A stretch of DNA of 43,647 bases, from the IMG/VR virus record IMGVR_UViG_3300035660_000027, positions 1 through 43,647 of that record; one strand, written 5' to 3'. Shown here in pieces: positions 7,974 to 26,729 of the stretch (position 1 is the first letter of the stretch; every line of letters starts with the position of its first letter). The notes beneath the pieces were generated by a model. That model ran no database searches, was not told where the DNA came from, and saw only the letters and a list, made by a program, of their open reading frames with translations. Source of the DNA: a virus. A program made the position numbers and the translations under genes.

Positions 7974-9619
7974 TTCTGTGCCATTACCTTTGGTACGATT
8001 GTTGTGTTGGGTTCAAGGTTTTCAATCTCATCCTGAATGCGCTTGTGCAAATCCGGCCTATTGAGTTCCTTGGCAATGGCTGTTGCCAGAACCGCGGAAG
8101 CAACCTTTTTCCTCGTTGAACTCGCATTTGCCCACTGGCGAACAGCTTGAGCGGTGCCAGGCTTGGACATGAGATGCTGAAACACGCTAGGTCCCTTCGG
8201 CGGATCAAGTGCTTTCTGCAAAGTTTTCAGATTGGGCTCTGCCAAAATTGCGTCCTGTATTGCTTCGATTGATCCAGCCGTACCTTTGCCGGCCAACCAC
8301 TTTGCACCGGCACCGATGCCCATGATGGTGTAAGGACCGCCCGGAATGATACCATGCAGAAGATGGCCGGCAATGTTGTCCAAGCTGAAACTCATGATGT
8401 TTTTAGGAGCAGCCGACCCTAAGCCTCTAAGAATCTGTTGAAATGTTCCACCGCCCTTGGCTACGTTTTCCACTCTAGTCGCCGCTTCGGGTGAAACAGC
8501 TCTCAGCATCCTCATTTTCTTTTCGTTCTTGGCAAACTGCCGAAATTCGGTGGAAAGCGCATCATCCAAGTTCTGGTGTGATCGCTGGCTCATTCTTAGT
8601 TGGGCACGATCGGCTATGTGCTTTACCTCTAATGCAGTAGACGCCTTGGCATAGTCCTTCATGCCTTCAGTAAGGGTCTTGCCCTCCATGAACTGACCCA
8701 TATACTCATCGAGAGAATCCTTCATCATCCTGCCTATGGCGCGCTCATTGACATCGGCGCTGCCGCTTACGCTCCGTATTTGCTGACGGAGTTGATGAAT
8801 GTCCTTGATCGTTGTCGTTGGTACCGCCGGATCGAGTTGACTGATTAGTTCCGGGTTCCTGGCAAGCGTTCTAGCCCGCGCCTCCGCATTGATCGACAAC
8901 GGAATGAACTGCTTGGATGGTTCTTTTGTTGCCAAAAGATTGTCAAACTCACGAAAGAGAGCCTTTGCTGACTTGTGAATACGAGGATTATACCCCTCCG
9001 CAGCAGCCTTGGCTTTAAGGTCCGTGACGATCGGATCTAGTGTCGTTGTCGGCAATGCCTCTTCTGAAGCCTTGGCAACATTCATCTGTGCCCCGGCTTG
9101 TGTCTTTAATGCCGCAGCTCTTTGTGCTGCCGGCAAAGGCTTTTCAGGCAAGGTAGCAATTCGTTCCGGCAGATTGGCAACTCGAGCTGCGTCCTCTGCT
9201 GCGATTGCGCCCTTAACTCCCTTGGCTGCAACAGCTTCCGGCACAAGAGCCAAGGTGACAATATCGGTGGCAACCCCTTTAGGGTCTGTAGCTACTGCCT
9301 TTTTCCAACCCTCCTCAGTCAAATACCTGTCGTATAGGTGTTTTGCCACTTTCTCGGCCATACCAGGAATGCTAGATGGCTCTGTGATGGCTTTGTAGGC
9401 GCCTCGAGCCAAAGCAGGGATAGTTTCGGTGCCAGGTACGGGTGGAAAATACGGGTGCTGTTGAGCTTCCTCTTGAGTTTGACGAGTTAGAGTTTTGCCA
9501 CCTTCGGCAAAGGCTTCCCCCCAAGACTGAGAGGGGGCTTCTGCCGGCGCAAACATAGTCTTAAAGTCAGGTGTTTCTCCTTGTGATTCAGGTGCAAACA
9601 TCGACTTGAAATCAGGCAC
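7970..9619 (-). CDS. Putative internal virion / DNA ejection protein (large)
   Basis: The 549-residue, helix-rich protein is third in a run of ejection-type genes. Its N-terminus carries a tandem duplicate, PDFKSMFAPESQ then PDFKTMFAPAEA. Long Ala/Lys/Glu helices follow, then a Gly-rich hydrophobic stretch (HGIIPGGPYTIMGIGAGAKWL) that might insert into membrane. Gene order after the neck proteins matches P22-like phages, where three ejection proteins are released with DNA. Its start overlaps the stop of the preceding gene by one base. No enzymatic motif was recognised. Confidence 0.65.
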   Translation of the reverse strand: MPDFKSMFAPESQGETPDFKTMFAPAEAPSQSWGEAFAEGGKTLTRQTQEEAQQHPYFPPVPGTETIPALARGAYKAITEPSSIPGMAEKVAKHLYDRYLTEEGWKKAVATDPKGVATDIVTLALVPEAVAAKGVKGAIAAEDAARVANLPERIATLPEKPLPAAQRAAALKTQAGAQMNVAKASEEALPTTTLDPIVTDLKAKAAAEGYNPRIHKSAKALFREFDNLLATKEPSKQFIPLSINAEARARTLARNPELISQLDPAVPTTTIKDIHQLRQQIRSVSGSADVNERAIGRMMKDSLDEYMGQFMEGKTLTEGMKDYAKASTALEVKHIADRAQLRMSQRSHQNLDDALSTEFRQFAKNEKKMRMLRAVSPEAATRVENVAKGGGTFQQILRGLGSAAPKNIMSFSLDNIAGHLLHGIIPGGPYTIMGIGAGAKWLAGKGTAGSIEAIQDAILAEPNLKTLQKALDPPKGPSVFQHLMSKPGTAQAVRQWANASSTRKKVASAVLATAIAKELNRPDLHKRIQDEIENLEPNTTIVPKVMAQK

Positions 9620-10707
9620 TATTGGCCTCCGGACAGGAAGTGTGCCGCCGCACCTGCGCCATAGAGTTCATCAAATGCCTTAATAGCCTCGGGGTTCTTG
9701 GCATATTGCCTCAATAGAGTAATCTTATCAGGGCTAGGAATTGGCCTAGCGTTCGGTCCAACACTTATTTGAGTAGCCCCCGGAACAGCAGGGCCAACAT
9801 TAGGAGTGGCGGCTTGCTGTGGTGTAGCTGTAGCACCTTCCCCATAGTCCTGTTCAATACCCTTCTTGAGCCTAGCCTTAGCCCCTACAGCCCAATCCCG
9901 AAGTTTCTTGACCTCTGCACGATATGAATCTTCATCTTGGGCCGAATCCAAAGCAGATATTCTTTGGTTCATGGTATTGAACTCGATAACTGCCAAACGT
10001 CCAAATCCTGCCGTTCCAGAAGTAGAGGCGTCCTTCAAGTCCTGGAATGTTCCTAGCTTGGCCTGATCCATCAATTGCTTTTGTTTGATGCTTAAATTAG
10101 CCGCAGGACTACCAGCTACATTGGGAATATATGCCCCCTTCCAGCCTGTAACACTACCTAGATACGGCGAACTGGTTAAGTCGTCGATGTTTTGGATCAT
10201 AGCATCAAGACCACCGGTTATGATCTGATACTTGTTTTCCAAAACCTCTTTTGGAGGCAGAGGCTTGGCCTTTTTCTGCTGTTGCCATTCCTCAAACGAT
10301 ACGGGTTTAGTCTCTCCCGTAGGCGTTGCTCCGGTAGGTTGCTGTCCCTGACTTTGTGCAAATAGATAATTCTTAATGTCGGGAGTTTCCCCGCCTTGTC
10401 GTGCTCTCAACGCTAGATCCGCTTCCTGATAGGGCGTCATTTGTGGCCCCTGAAGCGTCTTGTACGCAGTTGCTAATCCTTGCGCTCCCTGAATATCTCC
10501 AATCCCCATCAGCTTCATAATGCCAGCTTTGGGATCTTCCCCGCTCATCAATCCGGAAAGGGCATCCTTACGCGCAGCCTGTAACTCTTTCTGCTTCTGA
10601 TACTCAGCCTGTTGCTGCTGAAATAGCTGTGACTTGCGGTACTGCCCGATAAGGTTCTCGACGTTGCCGGTGAAATCTATTGATGGCGGCGCGAAGGGAT
10701 TAGGCAT
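9619..10707 (-). CDS. Putative internal virion / ejection protein (middle)
   Basis: The 362-residue protein has a Gln/Lys-rich helical N-terminal part (QYRKSQLFQQQQAEYQKQKELQAARK), Pro/Thr linkers and a conserved-looking core: DLTSSPYLGSVTGWKG ... MDQAKLGTFQDLKDASTSGTAGFGRLAVIEF. Low complexity with alternating helices is typical of phage ejection proteins. It is sandwiched between two further ejection-type genes. Function is inferred from context. Confidence 0.6.
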   Translation of the reverse strand: MPNPFAPPSIDFTGNVENLIGQYRKSQLFQQQQAEYQKQKELQAARKDALSGLMSGEDPKAGIMKLMGIGDIQGAQGLATAYKTLQGPQMTPYQEADLALRARQGGETPDIKNYLFAQSQGQQPTGATPTGETKPVSFEEWQQQKKAKPLPPKEVLENKYQIITGGLDAMIQNIDDLTSSPYLGSVTGWKGAYIPNVAGSPAANLSIKQKQLMDQAKLGTFQDLKDASTSGTAGFGRLAVIEFNTMNQRISALDSAQDEDSYRAEVKKLRDWAVGAKARLKKGIEQDYGEGATATPQQAATPNVGPAVPGATQISVGPNARPIPSPDKITLLRQYAKNPEAIKAFDELYGAGAAAHFLSGGQ

Positions 10708-11516: not shown

Positions 11517-11783
11517 TTACGGCTCGGTCGCCATAACTTGAACTACACCTGTAGCAAAAATGACGCATATCTGTGACTTACCTGCACCGTTGTCCCGGCA
11601 GAACACTCGTCCCGTATTGGCCGGCCCGTTGACAGGATCGGTTATCTCGGAGATTTCGATATAGGACTGCCGGATGTCCGGTCTGGTCGGCAGCGCCCAT
11701 TCCCAGAAATAGCGATACCACGGCAAGGCCATCCTGCCGCTTTTCTCGGACAAAGGCGTATCTGGTGGTGGTAGCGCCGTCAT
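11517..11783 (-). CDS. Small virion protein with fibre-type C-terminal module
   Basis: The 88-residue protein has an N-terminal segment ALPPPDTPLSEKSGRMALPWYRYFWEW, of a kind common in small phage structural proteins, and a C-terminal half (GPANTGRVFCRDNGAGKSQI ... FATGVVQVMATEP). That half matches the end of the fibre-like protein at 272-1435. The ATG overlaps the stop of the ATP-grasp gene (ATGA). It is probably a virion component; the shared module may be an assembly or attachment element. Confidence 0.6.
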   Translation of the reverse strand: MTALPPPDTPLSEKSGRMALPWYRYFWEWALPTRPDIRQSYIEISEITDPVNGPANTGRVFCRDNGAGKSQICVIFATGVVQVMATEP

Positions 11784-13156
11784 CTGCGTCCTAGAGCCTC
11801 AGAGAGATCGTCTGACAGGCTTTTCTTTCTTCCCGATAACAGGGAAGCCAAAGAGTTTGTGTCCTCCTTGGCCTCCTCTGCCTCGTCTGGAGTCGCATCG
11901 GAGAACAAGTCAATGCCAAAGTCAGCTAGTTTCTTGATTTCACCTACCGCCTCGTCCAAACTGTCTTGCATGGAGTGTATACAGTATCCCTCGACCTGAT
12001 CCGCCACCTTCTTGACGTTGGCGATAGCTTCCTCCATCGTGTCGCCTAATGCAACCGCGGCGCCGATCTCCGGCAGTCCTACGGCTTGAGGCACGACATA
12101 ATTTCGCCCGTTCAGCATGGTTCGATTGCGGAGCTTGACGCTGTTAGCGAGTGATTTCGGAAACTCAACCGCTTGCCAGTTGGAGTCGGCCCATTGACTG
12201 TGAAGAAGCAGCTCGGCACCCCACGGCGCCGCAAATTCAGGTTCGACCAGCTCACCAGCCGCACCGTGCCATATCACGTCGGCGAGGTTGGTAATCATGG
12301 TCTGAAACAACTCCCCCGGCGGACTACCCATCCGGCAACAGGGATCTATGGAATATGCAATACCGTCCTTGGTTATCCTGAGTTCATTGGCAAAGAAGTT
12401 ACGGTAGCGGAAGGCGCGGAGAGTAGAACTTATCTTTGCGTTCGTCTCTCTGATCTGGTCCGGTAACTCCTTATAAGGCTTCGTCGTCATAATCAAACAA
12501 CGGTCCTTGACCTCGATGCCGGCCATCGCGTTCTGCATGAACTTGCCGTCGATCGAGTAGCCGTCATAGGAAACCTCGACCGCATCGTCGATCGCATCCT
12601 CGACAATGAACTCCAGCACGTTTTTCTTGGCCCCTAGCTTGTACTCCATCTCGTCCAACTGTGGCTCGGTCAGCTTGTAGTTCTTGGAGCAGAACGTCTC
12701 CATATCCCCCCTTGTTTTGGATACCTTGACGTAGACGTTCTTGTGGTCCTTCAGGTACTCCCTCAAATTATCCAGACCCTTGACGATCTTGTAGCCGCCT
12801 ACGTCGATGCCAACCGACTCCATGTGTCCCTTGGCCCAAACGCGGTCGAGCTCCAGATCCTCGCCCATGCGAGAACCCCACACGCGCTTGCCTAGCGACT
12901 CCAAGTGAATCTGCTCCGGCCCCTTGTACACATCAGGGTACACGAACAGGTCGATCTCATCGAGATAAGGCCAGATCGAGTCGATGCGAGTGACCCCTGG
13001 AAGCCCCTTGCCGATCAGGACCGAATTGCTCTTCGGGAATGCCGACTCCCAGGGGCAGGTGTAGAATACGTCCTTGAAATGCGGGGCCAAGGTAACGGCA
13101 AGCTCTACGAATAGCCCGTTATCGACCACACATGCTGTCTTGGACTTGAGGCTCAT
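11780..13156 (-). CDS. ATP-grasp ligase-like enzyme
   Basis: The 458-residue protein has PurD/carboxylase-type ATP-grasp features. These are a lysine-bearing strand (NVYVKVSKTRGDMETF), an acidic adenine-side strand (LEFIVEDAIDDAVEVSYDGY) and a metal/phosphate site FFANELRI ... YSIDPCCRMGSPPGE, with the expected E ... D-P-x-x-R pattern. A C-terminal VALGDTMEEAIANVKKVADQV resembles the small domain ending PurD-like enzymes. About 60 charged residues follow as a tail. Such enzymes join a carboxylate to an amine or thiol with ATP. It is ATGA-coupled to the AdoMet-decarboxylase-like gene upstream, suggesting a two-step pathway. Substrates are unknown. Confidence 0.7.
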   Translation of the reverse strand: MSLKSKTACVVDNGLFVELAVTLAPHFKDVFYTCPWESAFPKSNSVLIGKGLPGVTRIDSIWPYLDEIDLFVYPDVYKGPEQIHLESLGKRVWGSRMGEDLELDRVWAKGHMESVGIDVGGYKIVKGLDNLREYLKDHKNVYVKVSKTRGDMETFCSKNYKLTEPQLDEMEYKLGAKKNVLEFIVEDAIDDAVEVSYDGYSIDGKFMQNAMAGIEVKDRCLIMTTKPYKELPDQIRETNAKISSTLRAFRYRNFFANELRITKDGIAYSIDPCCRMGSPPGELFQTMITNLADVIWHGAAGELVEPEFAAPWGAELLLHSQWADSNWQAVEFPKSLANSVKLRNRTMLNGRNYVVPQAVGLPEIGAAVALGDTMEEAIANVKKVADQVEGYCIHSMQDSLDEAVGEIKKLADFGIDLFSDATPDEAEEAKEDTNSLASLLSGRKKSLSDDLSEALGRR

Positions 13157-13521
13157 GCGTTCCCCGGTAGGCTTAGTGATCCGCTCATAGAGTCAATCAC
13201 CACCAACTCCTGATCGACTTCCAGCCAATGAACGACTTGCCGCTCATCGAACTTCTTGCAGGAGTTGATCGCAAAATACACCCCGTCATGGTCAGGCCAG
13301 GTATCAATGGTCAGAAAGCTCTCGGTAATCGGCTGCACCATCGTCAAGCCGTTGCCACCTTTGTCGTTGACGGGATAGCGCCAGGTCTGAGGAAGGCCGG
13401 TGGCATTCATGTTCATCAACTTAGCGGCGTCCCATAAAAATGTTCGCCACTGCGGCTCGGTTTTCGTGCCCCGTAAGGAAAGAGATAAAACCCAAATGCG
13501 CCGTCCAAATTCCTCAGTCAT
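13153..13521 (-). CDS. AdoMet decarboxylase (SpeD)-like protein, altered processing site
   Basis: The 122-residue protein contains ITESFLTIDTWPDHDGVYFAINSC, closely resembling the pyruvoyl-enzyme core of bacterial AdoMet decarboxylases (ES-H-L-x-I-H-T-W-P-E ... C). By that alignment Glu67-Ser68 is the self-cleavage pair and Cys88 matches the conserved acid/base cysteine, with exactly the family spacing. The processing histidine is replaced by Asp73. Length fits the short bacterial class. The activity may be changed or lost. It is ATGA-coupled to the ATP-grasp gene and follows the gp10-like gene by 13 bp. Confidence 0.6.
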   Translation of the reverse strand: MTEEFGRRIWVLSLSLRGTKTEPQWRTFLWDAAKLMNMNATGLPQTWRYPVNDKGGNGLTMVQPITESFLTIDTWPDHDGVYFAINSCKKFDERQVVHWLEVDQELVVIDSMSGSLSLPGNA

Positions 13522-13534
13522 CTAATGGCAACCC

Positions 13535-15052
13535 CTATTTCTCCGTGAAAAACGCCGTCATGTTGCTGCCACCGCCAACCAACCCGAAATGCACCGCGGA
13601 CGGCACCGCTAGACGCCACCGGCGCCCCTGCGGGCCTGACATCCCGGTGCGGCGTACCGTAATTCTCCGTAGGGACTTTTGCTGACGCCCCAACTCCCGA
13701 AACCGGGGATTCGACCAAGTAACCCCACCGTCATTAGACCATGACACTTCCGCATAAGGGTTGGTCTGGTCAGGGTCATGCCCGTCGATTATCCCTACTC
13801 CGGTGGTAAACTCGAAATCTGCCCTATGTACCGTGACAAACGCCGGGAAGTCCTCGACCGGCAGACTCTCGATCTCAGGGATGAACGGTTGATCGACTTC
13901 CTTGTACACGGTGCTGTCGATTTCCAGCATTCGCCCTTGAGCCAGGGTATCCCCGCAAAGCCAGGTATTGAAGGCAAAGACCGAACCCGTCAGCCTCGAG
14001 CGGGTGCTGAGATAGGATTTGCGCTCATGCCAGCGTGACTTCCCAATATCGGGCTCCAGGCAAAGCACCCAACTAAACTCGTCATTGGAAATCTGAAAGA
14101 ACGGCACACCGTCAGAGACGTAAACCAAAGCCTCTAAATCCGCGGTAGCACCTTTAATCAACCGTTGTAGTTGCGGTGGTGAAACGTCGATCGGCTGCGA
14201 GGTCTGCAACTGCCTTACAGTGTAATCAGAGGCGACATATAACGGCGGCTGACCGAACTCAGGCTCGAATCCCGCAACGGCATGATGGTTAATCAATCCA
14301 GGGGTCATGTTGAACCCCTGCCGGCTTAACGGAAATCCAGTAGGGTTGATCGGCGGACCCCACGTTTCGATGGTGGAGTTTCCCATGACGTACAGATAGC
14401 CGTTGTACGAAACGAGCTGGATCACTCCATCTGGGTCTGAGTTGGCATTCGCCAGGTTGAGCGTGTTGATCGTCGTGACGTTTACGTTGGTCGATAACAG
14501 ATTTCCATTGCCATACCCGAAAATGAGGAACCCATAAATACCGACAACACAGGTCGGAGAGCCTACATTTATATCAGGGTATGCAGAGATCGAGGTCGTC
14601 GTAACTGAGAATGTTCCGGCTTGGCACACCAGAACAATGTCGGGAGTCGGGGCCTTGTTGTTTCTGGCAAAGAAGACCTTATCGGTCCCGGAAACCGCGC
14701 CTATCTTGGTTGATGCACCGCCTTGAACGATCGTCCAAACAAACTCGCCAAACACCCCATACAGGACATTGTTTACGAAAATACCCCCGCGGTACACCCC
14801 GGTAGGAAGCGGCACGGTTTGTCCGGTAGCGAAAAACGGCTCGAAAGGCGTCCAGTACGTCCAGCCTAACGCGGTAGCCGTTTGTGACCCATATGCCGTC
14901 ACACCGGGAGATCGGTGGTAGATAGCCCCCGATTTCTCTCCTATCGGCTCGGCATAGCAGTTAATCAGCCGGCCGGAGTTCTCCTGCGGCTTGATGCCGG
15001 GAGACGTGGAAAGCGGCCAGATGATAGGGGTTCCATCGGTTTTTTTAGCCAT
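13535..15052 (-). CDS. P22 gp10-like head-completion / DNA-stabilisation protein
   Basis: The 505-residue, beta-rich protein contains WPLSTSPGIKPQENSGRLINCYAE, YHRSPGVTAY and SRQGFNMTPGLINHHAVAGF, all typical of P22 gp10-like packaged-DNA stabilisation proteins (tail hub). Trp/Tyr-rich blades follow (STIETWG, YVASDYTVRQL). It caps the portal after packaging. It follows the gp4-like gene by one base, the same order as in P22-type neck modules. Confidence 0.8.
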   Translation of the reverse strand: MAKKTDGTPIIWPLSTSPGIKPQENSGRLINCYAEPIGEKSGAIYHRSPGVTAYGSQTATALGWTYWTPFEPFFATGQTVPLPTGVYRGGIFVNNVLYGVFGEFVWTIVQGGASTKIGAVSGTDKVFFARNNKAPTPDIVLVCQAGTFSVTTTSISAYPDINVGSPTCVVGIYGFLIFGYGNGNLLSTNVNVTTINTLNLANANSDPDGVIQLVSYNGYLYVMGNSTIETWGPPINPTGFPLSRQGFNMTPGLINHHAVAGFEPEFGQPPLYVASDYTVRQLQTSQPIDVSPPQLQRLIKGATADLEALVYVSDGVPFFQISNDEFSWVLCLEPDIGKSRWHERKSYLSTRSRLTGSVFAFNTWLCGDTLAQGRMLEIDSTVYKEVDQPFIPEIESLPVEDFPAFVTVHRADFEFTTGVGIIDGHDPDQTNPYAEVSWSNDGGVTWSNPRFRELGRQQKSLRRITVRRTGMSGPQGRRWRLAVPSAVHFGLVGGGSNMTAFFTEK

Positions 15053-25400: not shown

Positions 25401-26729
25401 TCAGGCTGCTTGCCATGAGCCGGAACTCAATCTGGTGTAGCGTTTCGGTTGCTTGTCCATGTACTTCTCAGAGAATCCTACCGCAAACGTCCGCAGTGAA
25501 TCGGCGCCGTGCGAGGCCCAATCATGCAGAGGTTTCGGCTTCCAGACCTTGCCCTTGTCGTCCCACTCCCTGCGGTATTGTCTCAGGCACTCCAATCCTC
25601 GAGAACACCGTTTGCGGTCGATCCAGCACGAATCCAGCAATCTTCTCGTGGCGTTTATGCCGTCGTTCAAGTCGCCTTGCGGTACCACCGTAGCTGAGAT
25701 GCCTAGACTTCTTAGGGTTTCCATGCGGGACCGGTCCATGCCGATCATGTGCTGCGCGATGTCATGCGGAAAGTAGTGATCCCCGTACACATAGCCCTTG
25801 TCCTTCAAGAGCTTCGCGTAGTAGTCGAATCCCATGCCTGACGCTTCGGCGTAGTCGATCAGTCGTCTTTCCTTGCCAACGCATTGAATAAACCAGATAG
25901 CCGTCGAATCAGAGTAGCCAAGATCCCAAGCGGTGTGTACGGGTACAGCGCGGTCAATCGGTATGGAAGCAAGTCGTCCATCGTCCTCCATTCTGCGGAG
26001 TTCGGCGGCGAAATACGCTCCAAAAGTCGGCGCATCAAACGAACACATGTATTCCTGCTCGAACAAAGCATTGCCGGCCTCTTCCCCAAAGTCCTTCACA
26101 TACTCCGATCGTTCCGATGCTAACTGTTCCTCGGTGAACACTCCCGTCTCATTCGCTTTCAGGAGCTCGACGTGCCAGGTAGGGTCATCCCGGTAATCCT
26201 CATACATCTTAGCGGCATGGTTTCTTCCCCTGGACGTGGTAACGAACAAAGCCCATCCATCGTTCTCGAGTAGAATCGGTCGAATGTAACCCCAGGCCTT
26301 GGGGTCGGCGAGAGCCCACTCGGATGCAACAATCCCAACTGGTGGAGTCCCAACAAGAGCATTGTAATTGTCAGAGCCGACAAGATGCCAGTACGAACCG
26401 TTCTTGAACCTGATCGACATGGTATCTTCGCGGGTGCTCTCACGAAGCGCCTTCGGAAACGCAATGTCTATCCTCCGTATCCCTTTGTGCGGGTCAACCG
26501 CTTCCCAAATGGCCTTCCGGGCTTGTGCGTACTCAGGGAGAAGGTGCCAATAGGTGCCCACCCTTTGAAGTAATTGAGTTGCCGCCCAGTGCATTCCAAC
26601 ATCGTCTTTTCCAGACCGGCGATGCCAAACCAGAATAACCCTCTTTTTGCCGGATTCTAATGCTTTCCATGCATTCATCTGATAAGGTCTGGGATCCCAT
26701 CCATTGGGTATGCGGATAACCTTAGCCAT
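25401..26729 (-). CDS. terL: Terminase large subunit
   Basis: The 442-residue packaging motor and nuclease has Walker A HRRSGKD (36-42), a Walker B-like GIVASEW (131-137) in which Ser stands in the usual Asp position, and the coupling motif VTTSRG. The RNase H-like nuclease has acidic residues in AWDLGYSD (D268, D273) and near the end in HDWASHGADSLR. Its start overlaps the methyltransferase stop by one base. It translocates DNA through the portal and probably cuts by a headful mechanism, as expected for P22-type heads. Confidence 0.92.
   Translation of the reverse strand: MAKVIRIPNGWDPRPYQMNAWKALESGKKRVILVWHRRSGKDDVGMHWAATQLLQRVGTYWHLLPEYAQARKAIWEAVDPHKGIRRIDIAFPKALRESTREDTMSIRFKNGSYWHLVGSDNYNALVGTPPVGIVASEWALADPKAWGYIRPILLENDGWALFVTTSRGRNHAAKMYEDYRDDPTWHVELLKANETGVFTEEQLASERSEYVKDFGEEAGNALFEQEYMCSFDAPTFGAYFAAELRRMEDDGRLASIPIDRAVPVHTAWDLGYSDSTAIWFIQCVGKERRLIDYAEASGMGFDYYAKLLKDKGYVYGDHYFPHDIAQHMIGMDRSRMETLRSLGISATVVPQGDLNDGINATRRLLDSCWIDRKRCSRGLECLRQYRREWDDKGKVWKPKPLHDWASHGADSLRTFAVGFSEKYMDKQPKRYTRLSSGSWQAA

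Follow-up and report, generated by a model that had tools for sequence, protein, structure and literature searches.

What could an AdoMet decarboxylase-like (SpeD-like) protein do next to an ATP-grasp ligase among the late genes of a phage? This question is raised by a viral contig (43,647 bases), which is called the window in the following, meaning the whole stretch of DNA that was analysed. For this contig, the original prediction had described two translationally coupled genes, of which one could make or bind an amine and the other could ligate it. Both ORFs are found on the minus strand where they had been placed, and their 4-bp overlap reads ATGA. The gap between the head closure gene and the SpeD-like ORF amounts to 13 bp. 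The features of the locus are as follows:

13153-13521, minus strand: SpeD-like ORF, 122 aa, Asp-type; AdoMet decarboxylase fold according to a PF02675 match and the predicted structure
11780-13156, minus strand: PurD-like ATP-grasp ligase ORF, 458 aa; according to a 52-member profile and the predicted structure
13153-13156, minus strand: ATGA stop/start overlap of the SpeD-like and ATP-grasp ORFs, read from the sequence
11517-11783, minus strand: ORF of 88 aa with an ATGA overlap with the ATP-grasp ORF; no family match
13535-15052, minus strand: head closure Hc3, 5' of the SpeD-like ORF (phrog_578, 1.5e-54)
9619-10707: match to phrog_2534 ('released from the phage upon host infection'), downstream of the pair (3.4e-9)
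25401-26729: terminase gene

Besides the terminase, the part of the window ORFs that was scanned includes a major head protein, a scaffold, a portal and a DNA methyltransferase. The pair had been seen as lying inside neck/ejection genes, which is a fair description of the window with its Hc3 and phrog_2534 matches, but it needs widening, since in many relatives the pair is flanked by the large terminase gene on one side and by a P22-like portal gene on the other. Both settings, the latter as well as the position after head closure in the window, are late virion modules. Whether the 88-aa ORF belongs to the same cassette is uncertain. Among the late genes, a phrog_1574 protein (function not known; window:16369-17040) and a weak glycosyltransferase match (window:4623-5498) are also present, and an N6/N4 DNA methyltransferase gene (window:26729-28060) adjoins the terminase gene. 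A role in anti-phage defence was considered and dropped, since none of the PADLOC-DB families matched among the five proteins scanned.

The 122-aa ORF is a SpeD homologue, whose predicted structure displays a clear AdoMet decarboxylase fold. The original prediction had been staked on a profile match to SpeD, and a significant one was obtained: PF02675 (AdoMet_dc) matches the window protein with 35.4 bits (E=1.4e-8), above its curated cut-off of 25 bits, and of the 34 sequences in alignment A6, 31 reach this family at E≤0.01. The cut-off of the AdoMet decarboxylase equivalog TIGR03330 (75.65 bits) is not reached (18.4 bits), and the same holds true for HTVC201P, a tested phage arginine decarboxylase (38.4 bits). 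An AlphaFold2 model obtained with A6 as input has a pLDDT of 94.4 and aligns with the Thermotoga AdoMet decarboxylase 1vr7 over 111 residues (VIA-align Z 12.2, rmsd 3.2; Foldseek 1.3e-5). All five Foldseek matches at E≤0.001 are AdoMet decarboxylases from T. maritima or A. aeolicus, with Z values of 11.8-12.2. Since the A6 profile has no match at E≤1 in the PDB sequences, the SpeD assignment rests on Pfam, the His-type relatives and the predicted fold. Searching the PDB by phmmer with both window proteins gave chance-level matches only, and tblastn with these and with both proteins of the relative L001 gave nothing in 50,697 GenBank phage records.

On the level of the active site, an alignment with T. 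maritima SpeD places Glu67-Ser68, Asp73 and Cys88 at E62-S63, H68 and C83. The family spacing is kept, so that the Glu-Ser pair, the Cys and the Asp in place of the His stand as the original prediction had read them. Within the 48 distinct Asp-type proteins, these positions are occupied as follows:

13342-13344, minus strand: codon of Thr60, aligned with Ser55 of T. maritima SpeD; Thr in 44/48 and Ser in 2/48 Asp-type proteins
13318-13323, minus strand: Glu67-Ser68, where self-cleavage is predicted and the Ser would give rise to the pyruvoyl group; Ser in 48/48, Glu in 41, Asp in 5 and Thr in 2
13303-13305, minus strand: Asp73, where the processing His68 would be; Asp in 47/48 and Glu in 1/48
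13258-13260, minus strand: Cys88, aligned with the catalytic Cys83; Cys in 48/48

The single Glu at position 73 comes from locus L071. Neither Ser68 nor Cys88 varies, and position 73 stays acidic, despite a mean column identity of 32% in A6, which points to an active-site pattern. With T. maritima TM0655, a class 1b SpeD, the window protein has the fold, the length, the cleavage Ser, the Cys83 and a hydroxyl at position 55 in common. It differs in the change of His68 to Asp, in an Asp77 at the position of E72 and in the residue following the cleavage Ser, which is Phe in 46 of the 48 Asp-type proteins and not His. According to PMC10407285 (Li et al.), the T. maritima SpeD cannot process itself without S63, H68 and C83, and these residues are expected to be kept; from this expectation the Asp-type clade departs. 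The processing His is kept in all 55 His-type proteins among the matches listed and in 11/11 reference phage SpeDs. HTVC201P (AXH71538) resembles the window protein in Gln63 and Thr60; however, it has kept the His and has no adjoining ATP-grasp. In a quick tree of few columns and long branches, which was re-rooted so that branch labels may have moved, the Asp-type SpeDs form one clade (SH-aLRT 100) and the His-type SpeDs another (99). Judging from the aligned proteins, Asp for His marks a whole clade and is not the quirk of one sequence. The same tree groups the pelagiphage arginine decarboxylase and the Asp-type proteins together, but this is unreliable and was dropped as support. Phage SpeD homologues with a changed substrate are likewise described for SpeDA/SpeDC (PMC9992855; PMC10407285).

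For the second gene, the call as ATP-grasp, weak by its sequence alone, is secured by a family profile and by structure prediction. Pfam gave nothing credible for the 458-aa ORF alone, a first viral scan using the single sequence gave no match, and NCBIfam purD (TIGR00877) reached E=0.0047 and 15.8 bits against a cut-off of 288, which rules out a purine gene. The 52-member profile, on the other hand, matches PurD chains at E=3e-5, and the predicted model (pLDDT 92.2) aligns with PurD at a Z of 31.4 over 377 residues, at an identity of ~12-18%. PurT and PurK (Z ~23-25) and biotin carboxylase (~22) all score below PurD. Throughout the 52 sequences, K144, R149, E153, E186, E215, K217, E258, D271 and R275 are invariant, and both the fold and the conserved ATP/Mg residues of the ATP-grasp superfamily are present. 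This suggests a PurD-like enzyme with the ATP-grasp fold over its whole length, in which the N-terminal phosphate-binding stretch of PurD, GxGGREHA, is not kept (DNGLFVELA). Within a viral protein structure library, the nearest model has 10% identity and a TM of 0.44. An A5 search of 397 and of 398 bacterial genomes found the ATP-grasp in 1/397 and 1/398, which is the same genome and a known carrier.

How far the two genes belong together was the other point on which the original prediction depended, and their co-occurrence in relatives is wide. A viral scan, its query being a two-sequence alignment started from L001 (gene order terminase, small ORF, SpeD-like, small ORF, ATP-grasp), gave 65 viral loci carrying the ATP-grasp, L001 included. 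Together with the window, and with the duplicates L002-L004 dropped, a SpeD-like gene is present 5' of the ATP-grasp at 43/66, and at 26 of these 43 the ORFs, with mechanically chosen starts, are at most 20 bases apart. Scanning for the Asp-type SpeD motif yielded 42 viral loci, all 42 with an ATP-grasp just downstream, which in at least three cases is truncated at the end of the contig. Since 12 of these 42 contigs are absent from the results of the ATP-grasp scan, this part represents an independent test of the pairing. The widest count comprises 108 distinct ATP-grasps among the matches listed, 100 of them with at least 600 nt upstream; here, the upstream partner is an Asp-type SpeD in 55, a His-type SpeD in five, an amidinotransferase/deiminase-like gene in two and none of these in 38. 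The queries derive from the window and the counts favour its kin, so these numbers among the matches listed are not frequencies in nature. Eight bacterial loci with the ATP-grasp were found in a scan of GTDB contigs, two of them with a SpeD-like gene; one of the eight, on Bradyrhizobium sp. YR681 contig NZ_AKIY01000059.1 (L069), has a pair that looks intact, and its contig agrees in length and coordinates with a viral contig of IMG/VR (31,428 bases).

The cassette is real and conserved across dozens of phage contigs. As far as searched it is unnamed, and the open-licence literature searched yielded no description of a SpeD/ATP-grasp phage cassette. Around the pair, the relatives carry the families f6/f8 upstream and f1 downstream, the latter at 32 loci. 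Another family of ~130 aa, f10, marked by a HELVE/HELIE motif and, towards the C-terminus, by EH..A..IE (L070:5712-6095, L032:1438-1836 and others), lies near 21/100 distinct ATP-grasps among the matches listed, with or without SpeD. It was considered as a third component, and the members scanned had no family above cut-off. A C-terminal motif like GxISxKAxxK, which resembles a SHOCT-type tail, recurs in small proteins encoded near the pair (L045:4590-4898, L001:2786-3067) and in some ATP-grasps (C-terminal end of L001:3622-4983).

What lies 5' of the ligase bears on the possible product. His-type phage SpeDs have an ATP-grasp in the flanks examined at 5/80 loci among the matches listed, namely on the contigs of L017, L018, L024 and L026 and at L127. 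These five SpeDs form one clade (SH-aLRT 93), and in the ATP-grasp tree their ligases are nested among those of the Asp-type (clade of 44 rows, 100/100). It thus seems that one kind took the place of the other at this position, and this speaks for a common function. Among the His-type relatives is speH_1 of MaAM05, from an operon speH_2-speH_1-speE-speB (agmatinase), although the tie between the His-type group and speH_1 is weak (support 63). In this Microcystis phage (L198:2486-5264), the four consecutive genes are those of two SpeDs, one canonical and the other divergent, followed by speE and the agmatinase gene, and the operon suggests a phage-encoded route from arginine to spermidine.

Two deep ATP-grasps without SpeD, L062 and L216, have amidinotransferase/arginine-deiminase-like genes directly 5' instead (L062:3752-4987 and L216:2280-3443; 52% identical). 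The best PDB matches of the L062 partner are HsvA (9.4e-7) and inosamine-phosphate amidinotransferase (8.2e-6), and a scan for further such partners with the L062 protein as query found itself only. Amidinotransferase-type enzymes commonly use arginine, and one acting on putrescine would also yield agmatine. In L216, the ATP-grasp ORF (L216:3456-5807, 783 aa) contains ~355 intein-like residues, which interrupt the conserved RGD motif and, identified by eye, start at a Cys and end before a Ser. A fusion of amidinotransferase and ATP-grasp was ruled out for this locus, since the extra ~355 residues are intein-like and the amidinotransferase-like protein has a gene of its own, upstream.

The fold, the conserved residues, the coupling and the conserved pairing come out of the computations themselves, and the chemistry that we infer from here on follows the amine-making and ligating proposal of the original prediction, whose interpretation is partly supported overall. 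The favoured reading is a two-enzyme late-gene cassette, in which a basic amine would come from a pyruvoyl decarboxylase whose processing residue is acidic and would then be built into an amide by a PurD-like ligase; its probability is put at about one half. Here, the SpeD-like proenzyme of the class 1b AdoMet decarboxylase fold would cleave itself between Glu67 and Ser68, Ser68 would become the pyruvoyl group, and Asp73 would take the role of the usual histidine. This pyruvoyl group would decarboxylate a basic amino acid, likeliest L-arginine or L-ornithine, to agmatine or putrescine, and the ATP-grasp would activate a carboxylate with ATP and form an amide bond to that amine. A guess from the gene position is that the product acts in virion assembly or genome packaging; it might, for example, be an amide carried by a virion protein or a small cation accompanying the packaged DNA.

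A product of arginine or ornithine is favoured because Asp-type and His-type SpeDs look exchangeable upstream of the ligase, and because the amidinotransferase/deiminase-like genes take this position in L062 and L216. Furthermore, the His-type group lies near MaAM05 speH_1, whose neighbourhood is of the arginine decarboxylase type; following PMC10407285, arginine decarboxylases can be predicted from neighbourhoods of the speH/speE/agmatinase kind. Finally, phage SpeDs have been proven to be AdoMet, arginine or ornithine decarboxylases, as stated in PMC9992855, which again would fit to arginine or ornithine. Counting against the favoured reading, the PurD-like fold suits ligases of very different substrates, as PurT, PurK and biotin carboxylase match too.

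In addition, H68 is essential in the T. maritima SpeD (PMC10407285), and the Asp could mean that no cleavage occurs at all. This leads to the alternative that the Asp-type SpeD is a dead enzyme and a binding or regulatory subunit, like the prozyme of trypanosomes, a dead AdoMet decarboxylase paralogue, while the ATP-grasp alone works on host substrates. Such a subunit would explain the missing processing His in 48/48 Asp-type proteins and the tight association with the ATP-grasp (42/42), and the AdoMetDC/prozyme heterodimer 5tvm is among the structural matches of the model. It would also be in line with the 38/100 ATP-grasps among the matches listed that have neither SpeD nor another recognised partner, which indicates that the ligase manages without an amine-making enzyme encoded next door. 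However, a dead subunit should lose Ser68, Cys88 and the acidic residue at position 73, all of which are kept, and in five phages the same slot is occupied by a His-type SpeD in which the processing set is complete. A dead subunit is considered unlikely.

Still less probable is an ordinary polyamine supply, in which phage replication would draw on a polyamine, or a precursor of it, made by the SpeD-like protein, with the ATP-grasp serving an unrelated function. The phage SpeDs with proven AdoMet, arginine or ornithine decarboxylase activity provide a model for it (PMC9992855). Nevertheless, an Asp-type SpeD without ATP-grasp occurs at 0/42 loci, the genes of the window overlap, and the tested HTVC201P enzyme is encoded between an exonuclease region and ribonucleotide reductase and not among virion genes. 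It is equally improbable that the amine or a conjugate is placed on bases of the phage genome, as in known hypermodified phage DNAs: PurD itself ligates glycine to ribosylamine, the pair lies beside packaging genes in many relatives and a DNA methyltransferase is also present in the window, but no other base-hypermodification enzyme was recognised among the window proteins scanned (part of the ORFs), and the pair belongs to a late virion module and not to a nucleotide module.

For the two-enzyme cassette, the nearest precedent in idea is found in operons of the PspA type, for which PMC11237479 describes an AdoMet decarboxylase linked to an ATP-grasp ligase that resembles glutathionylspermidine synthetase. 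As in the phage cassette, a SpeD and an ATP-grasp ligase are linked, and they are thought to handle polyamines; in contrast, these operons are cellular and belong to membrane stress, and their ligase is of the glutathionylspermidine synthetase kind and not PurD-like. PMC12568646 outlines the biosynthesis of E-64, in which two enzymes, one an ATP-grasp enzyme and the other a distinct amide synthetase, link an acid, an amino acid and an amine, for instance agmatine.

Taken further, the cassette might represent a dedicated late phage pathway. Here, a SpeD-derived enzyme would make agmatine or putrescine, a new PurD-like family would attach this amine to a virion carboxylate or a small carrier, giving an amide unknown from phages, and an amidinotransferase-like enzyme would substitute in some lineages. 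This wider picture is tentative and may well turn out to be wrong, although its chance is not small. The conserved pair itself points to an undescribed chemistry of late infection, and its ATP-grasp family, present in dozens of environmental phage contigs, is named in no library searched. If the reading is true, an acid can replace the histidine that is held to be essential for SpeD self-processing, and phage assembly would gain a biosynthetic step, with a basic amine made and attached while the heads are built and filled.
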